In this document: piece after piece, positions 9,488 through 33,769 of the stretch
Layout of the letters: every line of letters starts with the position of its first letter
Numbering within the stretch: the stretch's first letter is position 1
Assembly (NCBI GenBank): GCA_001820175.1
Contig: MHOT01000005.1
Location: forward strand, 1-33,864
DNA from: Candidatus Staskawiczbacteria bacterium RIFCSPHIGHO2_02_FULL_42_22
Lineage (GTDB): Bacteria; Patescibacteriota; Minisyncoccia; Minisyncoccales; Staskawiczbacteraceae
Reading direction: 5' to 3'
Length of the DNA stretch: 33,864 nt
Notes under the pieces: generated by a model
Told to the model about the DNA's origin: nothing
Databases searched by the model: none
Seen by the model: the letters and a program-made list of their open reading frames with translations, nothing else
Position numbers and translations under genes: made by a program

Positions 9488-10291
9488 ATGATTCCACTTC
9501 CATTACCTGCTAAGGTGATAAAAAAGGATTCCCATCAAGCAACCTTTGAAATAGACGGCCTCTATCCGGGGTATGGGGTTACCATCGGGAATTCATTGCG
9601 ACGGGTTTTGTTATCATCTCTTCAAGGAGTTGCCGTTACTGAAGTTAAAATAAAGGGAGCGCCCCATGAATTTTCCACCATCCCCGGGGTGTTGGAGGAT
9701 GTTATTATGATTCTCTTGAATCTAAAAAATTTAAGATTCAAAATTCATGAAGGGACTATGCAAAAAGTACAGCTTCATGTAAAGGGAGAGAGAAAAGTAA
9801 CAGGAGGGGACTTTAAAATGTTTCCCCAAATTGAATTGGCAAACCCTGAGCTACCTATTGCCACCATTACTGATAAAAAAACGGAACTTGATATAGAACT
9901 TACCATAGAAAAAGGCATTGGATACGAGCCGAAAGATCATCGAAAAATAAAAAAAGCGGGGGCGGGCATTCAAGAAAAAGCGGAAATAGGGGCCATTGCT
10001 CTAGATGCTATTTTTACCCCCATTAAAAATGTGAATTTCCAAGTAGAAAATATGCGAGTAGGGGAAAGGACTGATTTTGATAAACTTCGCCTTGAAATAG
10101 AAACTGATGGTACGTTGACTCCGCAAGAAGCATTTTCCCAGGCATGTGACATATTGTTATCCCACTTTACCTTAGTTTCAGGAAAAGATTCATCTTTGAT
10201 TGACGGAGAAGGTGCCAATAATGCTGATCAAACACCTAAAGAAAAACCTAAAAAGAAAGAAGTAAAGCCAAAAAAGAAAAGCAAGAAGTAA
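9488..10291 (+). CDS. rpoA: DNA-directed RNA polymerase alpha subunit
   Basis: GYGVTIGNSLRRVLLSSLQGVAVTEVKIKGAPHEFSTIPGVLEDV; start set after the tttcatg repeat. Confidence 0.95.
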   Translation: MIPLPLPAKVIKKDSHQATFEIDGLYPGYGVTIGNSLRRVLLSSLQGVAVTEVKIKGAPHEFSTIPGVLEDVIMILLNLKNLRFKIHEGTMQKVQLHVKGERKVTGGDFKMFPQIELANPELPIATITDKKTELDIELTIEKGIGYEPKDHRKIKKAGAGIQEKAEIGAIALDAIFTPIKNVNFQVENMRVGERTDFDKLRLEIETDGTLTPQEAFSQACDILLSHFTLVSGKDSSLIDGEGANNADQTPKEKPKKKEVKPKKKSKK

Positions 10292-10397
10292 GTAGATGCG
10301 ATGCCAATATGCGAATGCATACTAATAATACCAATACGGAAACGTTATTCGTATAATTAGTATGAATTAGTATATTAGAATCGCATTGAGCGAAGCG
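10292..10397 (+). repeat. Palindromic spacer, family gatgcgatgccaatatgcgaatgcatact / tagtatgaattagtatattagaatcgcat
   Basis: Reverse complement matches the spacer at 33091-33364. Confidence 0.8.
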
Positions 10398-17515: not shown

Positions 17516-17897
17516 TAGATAGAATATTCCAGAATCGGACTTAAGGCCTCGTCCGTAAATAACATACAAGTTTTTCGCCAAGATGTCTGTCGCCTTGGCT
17601 CAAAAAAATGTGAGGCATAATAAAGTTATGCCGAGCATTTTTTGGAGCCAAGATGGCGGGCAGATTGGATGAAAAAGTGTATGTTATTTACGGACGAGGC
17701 CTAAGACCTAGAACATTTGGCAATATTGGTTGTCTTGGAGTCAAGACGCGAGGGTAATGTGTCGCAACAAATTCGCCCCGTCTCCAAAAAATTTACGAGG
17801 CGTAGCCGAAGCTACGGCGAGTAAATTTTTTGGGAAAGACAGTCAAGATTGGCAAATGGGCAGGTTCTTGGAGTCCGATTCTGGAATGTTTTATCTA
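17516..17897. mobile_element. MITE-like palindromic element (outer), TIR TAGATArAAyATTCCAGAATCGGACT, interrupted by the element at 17544-17701
   Basis: tagatagaatattccagaatcggact ... agtccgattctggaatgttttatcta; central GAGGCGTAGCCGAAGCTACGGCGA. Confidence 0.7.
17544..17701. mobile_element. Nested MITE-like element, 24-bp TIR GGCCTCGTCCGTAAATAACATACA
   Basis: TA-AGGCCTCGTCCGTAAATAACATACA ... TGTATGTTATTTACGGACGAGGCC-TA. Confidence 0.75.
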
Positions 17898-17942
17898 TAA
17901 GCCGTATTCTATCAAAAATAGCCCTTTTTTCAATGATGACTA

Positions 17943-18121
17943 TAGATAAAACATTCCAGAATCGCCCTGATAACCTATAAAAATTGCGCCTCGGGGATGT
18001 TTTTCCCTTAAAAAATTCTCGATGCAGCTACGGCTGCATCTTTGGTTTTTTAAGCTCCAAAACACCCCGATGCATCAATTTTTCTGGCGATTCCAAGGGC
18101 GATTCTGGAATGTTTTATCTA
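17943..18121. mobile_element. MITE-like palindromic element, TIR TAGATAAAACATTCCAGAATCG, TA flanks
   Basis: TA-TAGATAAAACATTCCAGAATCG ... CGATTCTGGAATGTTTTATCTA-TA; central GATGCAGC-TACG-GCTGCATC. Confidence 0.75.
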
Positions 18122-18198
18122 TATGTGTTATAGTTAGGTCGGTTCTTTGAGGGGGTATTGGTGCCTGGCAAGAAAATGTCTAGCAAAAGGAGTCAGTC

Positions 18199-33082: not shown

Positions 33083-33090
33083 AAGTATAA

Positions 33091-33364
33091 TGCGATTCTA
33101 ATATACTAATTCATACTAATAATACTAATGCGAAAACGTTATTTGTATCATTATGGACATCACATCCAGAAACCGCACTTAAGTTGCCGACGGTTTGGCA
33201 ATCTTGGGCGGCTTGGAGCAAAAAATTTGTGAGGCCTAGCCGTAGCTACGCCGAACAAATTTTTTGTGAAAACTGCCCAAGATTGGCAAATCCGGCAAGA
33301 CTTGGAGTGCGGTTTCTGGATGTGATGTCCATAGTATGCATTCGCATATTGGCATCGCACTTCA
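33091..33364. repeat. Spacer homologous (inverted) to the rplQ spacer, interrupted by the element at 33154-33331
   Basis: tgcgattctaatatactaattcatactaataatac .. tagtatgcattcgcatattggcatcgca. Confidence 0.85.
33154..33331. mobile_element. 178-bp MITE-like palindromic element, about 25-bp TIR TGGACATCACATCCAGAAACCGCACT, TA duplication
   Basis: TA-TGGACATCACATCCAGAAACCGCACT ... AGTGCGGTTTCTGGATGTGATGTCCA-TA. Confidence 0.85.
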
Positions 33365-33769
33365 ATGGTAGCAAATTTTAAGAAAAAGGGGAAGAGAAAT
33401 AGCGCTAAAAAGTTTTTGTTGCACACGGTCGGAGTAGCTGCAATAATTCTTTTGGTGGTTTTAGTAGTAGTGGATGTAAGGGTATATAAAAGGCGCCAAG
33501 AATTGCATTTCCAAGTTTCAAATTTAGAGCAACAAATAAAAGATATTCAAACCAGTAACGATAATTTAACCCAAAAAATTCAAAACCAAGACAACCCTCA
33601 GTACATGGAAAAAATTGCCCGAGAAGAATTAGATTTACAAAGACCGGGAGAAAAAGCAGTTTCTTTTATAATGCCGGAAACCCTTCCGCAAAATACTGAA
33701 GCCAGCCAGAAAAATCCTTGGTCAAAATGGTTTGGGAATGTGTTAAATATGATAACCGGAAAAAAATAA
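33365..33769 (+). CDS. Septum formation initiator family protein (DivIC/FtsB/FtsL-like)
   Basis: Basic N-terminus, one TM, coiled coil LHFQVSNLEQQIKDIQTSNDNLTQKI, PQYMEKIAREELDLQRPGEKAVSFI. Confidence 0.8.
   Translation: MVANFKKKGKRNSAKKFLLHTVGVAAIILLVVLVVVDVRVYKRRQELHFQVSNLEQQIKDIQTSNDNLTQKIQNQDNPQYMEKIAREELDLQRPGEKAVSFIMPETLPQNTEASQKNPWSKWFGNVLNMITGKK

Follow-up and report, generated by a model that had tools for sequence, protein, structure and literature searches.

A palindromic, TA-flanked element upstream of divIC in Candidatus Staskawiczbacteria is a likely MITE of an orphan family with matched end classes

Results

A transposon-like palindrome lies upstream of divIC. The spacer upstream of divIC in Candidatus Staskawiczbacteria RIFCSPHIGHO2_02_FULL_42_22 contains a 182-bp palindrome that is very likely a MITE (a non-autonomous DNA transposon) with a duplicated TA target, and it was probably moved by an enzyme of the Tc1/mariner/IS630 type. 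It belongs to an orphan MITE family with an unusual pattern of matched end switching. The genome (G000) comprises 821 kb in 30 contigs, and the window analyzed here, 33,864 nucleotides in length, is the whole of contig C5. Analysis of the divIC spacer revealed the following features:

33152..33333, plus strand: MITE copy with terminal repeats of class T1 (TATGGACATCACATCC), a near-complete palindrome from TA to TA (assigned by arms, fold, genome matches, and end class)
33152..33179, plus strand: left arm, terminal inverted repeat of 28 bp including TA
33306..33333, minus strand: right arm, terminal inverted repeat of 28 bp including TA
33152..33153, no strand: left TA of the target-site duplication (empty-site alignments)
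33332..33333, no strand: right TA of the target-site duplication (empty-site alignments)
33365..33769, plus strand: divIC-like septum formation gene (PF04977), downstream of the insertion

At 182 bp including both TAs, the element is too small to hold a transposase gene. The two arms are 100% complementary over their 28 bp, and the element folds back nearly end to end with a free energy of -123.9 kcal/mol (z = -17.8), a value matched by none of 200 shuffled sequences. A preliminary description made from the sequence had reported a 178-bp element between two TAs at this place, with a near-perfect 25-bp terminal inverted repeat; the length is borne out (33154-33331), and the repeat is better than stated. 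The other neighbor of the element is a 32-amino-acid minus-strand frame (33082-32984). In other species of the genus (L078, L083, and L086), clear relatives of this membrane-like frame, MKAKKILKIVWVILISLVGISMIFWSVGMGLY, occupy the same position.

The element interrupts a host repeat at a TA. The sequences on both sides of the element form two parts of another repeat, an uninterrupted copy of which is present in the same window:

33089..33151, no strand: host palindromic repeat of ATACTAAT type, part to the left of the insertion (host-repeat alignment)
33334..33360, no strand: right part of the interrupted host palindromic repeat (host-repeat alignment)
10286..10392, minus strand: uninterrupted host-repeat copy in the rpoA-rplQ spacer, a paralogous empty site (joined-flank alignment, gene scan)

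When the divIC flanks were joined with one TA, they aligned with the rplQ spacer (10297-10384, minus strand) over 88 nt without gaps at 85% identity, which confirms the related uninterrupted site that had been proposed. The rpoA-rplQ spacer belongs to the ATACTAAT-type palindromic repeat family, which has about a dozen copies in the genome. The dinucleotide at the insertion point is TA in 11 of the 12 uninterrupted host copies (rplQ included) and TC in L165. The single TA at the join in the host copies indicates that the element is nested in another repeat and that TA was duplicated. The repeat family itself, with one copy at 10286-10392 and about 12 elsewhere, is built of ATACTAAT- and ATTCGTAT-like units around a variable center; the divIC spacer of G017, a relative, holds a similar palindrome.

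The joined-flank test revealed gapless empty sites for five insertions (L001, L004_948, L020, L023, and L024), which span end classes T1, T2, and T3. TA is kept in the uninterrupted paralogue at L023. The paralogues of L004_948, L020, and L024 read TG, CG, or CA where TA is expected, and these three insertions therefore support only the 2-bp length of the duplication, not its sequence. Comparison with paralogous empty sites thus points to a 2-bp (TA) target duplication, which is well supported and agrees with the insertion and TA duplication claimed at the outset. A TA duplication is also a mark of MITEs derived from IS630/Tc1-mariner elements. The orthologous divIC spacers of the genus, where an empty site with a single TA junction had been suggested as a check, do lack the element, but they are too diverged for empty sites to be defined at the base level; the exception is the spacer of G010, a gapless match of 70% in which the exact TA is not conserved.

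The family is dispersed in the genome. A DNA search with the element gave 71 matches at about 37 distinct places, as palindromes match twice; 17 of the copies are full length at 90 to 100% identity. About ten further places were found in G010, a sister species of the same genus (Candidatus Staskawiczbacteria), and one in G017 (L033). G010 is very probably Candidatus Staskawiczbacteria RIFCSPLOWO2_01_FULL_38_12b, since this was the only named assembly with paired MITE ends. Most copies are located outside long reading frames: of 35 empty junctions, 10 fall in a frame of at least 100 amino acids, compared to 74% of random positions at the same loci. Shortened copies (63 and 133 bp) and copies with further inserts also exist. 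Two relatives are located in the window:

17785..17899, plus strand: fragment of a related element, its right end of class T4 (TATAGATAAAACATTCC)
17942..18124, plus strand: MITE relative with a diverged interior and ends of class T4

Another repeat, GACGCGAGGGTAATGTGTCGCAACAAATTCGCCCCGTCT (about 45 bp, window about 17740-17785), is present at many genomic sites and recurs at one and the same position within several MITE copies. Two identical MITE copies stand in tandem at L008 1501-1896 (G000 C27:17783-18178). A shared flank of about 32 bp comes before each of them and TA bounds the unit, as if the flank had been duplicated locally together with the element.

The two ends of most copies belong to the same class. 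Every MITE end starts with TATRGA, with TA outermost, and seven types of terminal repeat were distinguished:

T1: TATGGACATCACATCC
T1b: TATAGACATCACATCC
T2: TATGGAACAAACATTA
T3: TATAGAACAAACATTA
T4: TATAGATAAAACATTCC
T5: TATAGAACACACATTCC
T6: TATGGACACCACATGA

For the count of matched ends, single end sites of any class were taken as the starting point, and the class opposite was then recorded. Matched ends were found in 39 of 41 two-ended copies. The remaining two are hybrids, T1/T3 at C12:49169 (L054) and T2/T5 at C17:1752 (L049). Further ends have no partner within 420 bp; in the genus these are mostly truncated or diverged copies, and elsewhere they are single sites. Interiors with different ends are sometimes closer to each other than interiors with the same ends. 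The interior tree gave seven class changes for the five classes present, where the minimum is four, an exact number that is uncertain as most inner branches are weak. For T2, which is found on two clearly distinct interiors, branches with good support require no fewer than two changes. End types and interiors assort independently in part. Tentatively, both ends may switch class together: one arm would gain a new end by recombination, giving a hybrid, and the other arm would then be copied from it within the fold-back. The copies at C12:49169 and C17:1752 could be examples of the hybrid stage.

The arms covary, probably through a DNA-level process. Comparison of the copies revealed changes on both sides at 30 of 70 arm pairs, compared to a mean of 18.3 after shuffling and 3 to 8 with the partners slid. 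The structure was derived from the same alignment, however, and end classes differ from each other in blocks that account for many of the changes, so that fewer events are independent. Pairs of the inner stem covary as well (column 77/109 is T-A in 15 copies and A-T in 11), and the effect is therefore not confined to the ends. A strong hairpin in which paired changes exceed every shuffle and slide might suggest that the element is selected as a transcript, acting as a regulator or mRNA stabilizer, and that its copies are kept for this reason. A folded transcript of one strand under selection should favor G-T over A-C mismatches, but when the arms were aligned in a strand-neutral manner, 29 versus 23 distinct events were counted, and 6 versus 6 in the outer 28 pairs. 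Counted by cells, the numbers are 106 versus 72 among copies that are related to each other. There is no significant excess of G-T, so an RNA fold is not a likely reason for the covariation; the window also had no Rfam match, and an RNA element is considered improbable overall. The RNAalifold pair table, with G-U cells far above A-C cells, had suggested RNA-level selection, which proved to be an artefact of that method in view of the strand-neutral 29 versus 23. A process at the DNA level, such as copying from arm to arm, is the preferred explanation and would account for the covariation.

Search for the transposase. No transposase was recognized among those window genes that were scanned (some of the total), as had been stated before. 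The preliminary description had linked the TA duplication to IS630/Tc1-mariner-type transposition and proposed a search for an IS630-like transposase with matching ends. The part concerning a TA-duplicating insertion bounded by terminal inverted repeats, with dispersed copies, held; matching IS630 ends were not found. IS630-type (DDE_3) genes are present in 9 of 247 genomes of the order; among the 36 genomes of the family, this one has a single gene (contig C30) and the remaining 35 have none. The C30 gene belongs to a single 1.1-kb element (L031 912-2027, G000) with perfect 35-bp terminal inverted repeats (TATAGCCTGTTAAAAACAAAATGTCGC...). The contig is short (5.7 kb), and contamination is possible. 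As the only DDE_3 gene of the genome, in an element whose ends likewise start with TATAG and have TA outermost, it might be taken for the resident mover of the MITE. Its 35-bp repeat, however, shares just the first few bases with the MITE ends and is unlike any of their classes, and G010 carries MITEs but has no DDE_3 gene, which makes this origin very unlikely. The order's other DDE_3 elements with recognizable ends differ from the MITE in these ends as well, and some DDE_3 elements showed no clear ends. Because the match of terminal repeats was tested and not found, membership in an IS630-derived group is not claimed.

The search of 247 genomes of the order yielded no autonomous element with MITE ends. 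None with a T1 end turned up among contigs of named genomes or of viruses, and no cut-off T-class element was seen at any of this assembly's 60 contig ends. Within the order, exact T1 ends are restricted to two genomes, both from this genus, and T2 and T3 ends outside the genus are single sites. In G020, G028, G187, named genomes of other phyla, and viral contigs, single sites resembling the terminal repeats lack a second end in their vicinity. The partner could have been missed through an assembly gap, lost, located on another replicon, or of another transposase family.

IS5-type (DDE_Tnp_1) genes in G000, G010, and G017 were also considered as partners and rejected, as they have no matching ends; the DDE_Tnp_1 gene on C25 of G010 goes with another repeat family, TAGACCTGTCCC. 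The end of the contig (window 33769-33864) lies inside yet another repeat, with the end TATTAGACCTGTCCCTAAATAAG. In G010 (L241 954-2055), this end also delimits an element of 1.1 kb that carries a DDE_Tnp_1 transposase, and this repeat family does seem to have a transposase partner.

Two other explanations are scarcely credible. TA is self-complementary, and the palindrome by itself could account for the TA at either end without any target being duplicated, but the host copies without insertion have one TA at the join, and the 88-nt alignment shows neither gain nor loss of bases. Palindromic form, repetition, and a position mostly outside genes would also suit a REP-type element that depends on an HUH (Y1) transposase instead of a DDE enzyme, and Y1-like genes are present in G010 and G017, but the element's own genome has no Y1 match, and a 2-bp duplication with matched terminal repeats does not fit Y1 transposition, which leaves no target duplication.

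Discussion

These results are best explained by a MITE. Most likely, a TA-specific transposase of the Tc1/mariner/IS630 type, acting in trans by cut-and-paste, would have inserted the element into the right arm of a pre-existing palindromic intergenic repeat upstream of divIC and duplicated the target TA. Different end classes may be read by different transposases. The class of mechanism is probable; a named family is unproven.

In general description, the element resembles the Stowaway MITEs of plants, which are of the Tc1/mariner type, duplicate TA, and are highly self-complementary over their whole length; unlike it, these are eukaryotic and have known mariner-like transposases.

The repeat unit of pneumococcus (RUP) is a non-coding 107-bp element with a TA target, hairpin-paired terminal inverted repeats, and many intergenic copies, for which an IS630-type transposase has been proposed as the mover (PMC2229807, PMC3049150). 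The present family shares its non-coding nature, hairpin ends, TA target, and many intergenic copies. RUP has a contiguous terminal repeat of 9 bp, compared to 28 bp here, and a partner with similar ends (IS630-Spn1), whereas none was found for this family. Correia/NEMIS and ERIC elements carry TA at both ends, terminal inverted repeats, and a long stem-loop in less than 200 bp (PMC2229807), traits shared by the element described here. Their known hosts are Neisseria and enterobacteria; what sets the present family apart is that one kind of interior carries several end classes. Insertion of ISY100, a member of the IS630 family, is almost confined to TA, which is duplicated in the process (PMC2170065). 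IS630 family insertion sequences share this target duplication with the MITE, which differs from them in having no transposase gene inside and in its ends, which are unlike those of the order's IS630-type elements.

No description of MITEs in Patescibacteria was found in the limited literature searched. With its dozens of orphan palindromic elements, some of them inside other palindromes, this 0.8-Mb genome is well suited to testing how such elements persist when no transposase is visible. If end switching is true, one interior could be handed between transposase specificities and outlive its original partner. Matched end classes on shared interiors offer a concrete, testable idea of how MITEs may change their transposase.
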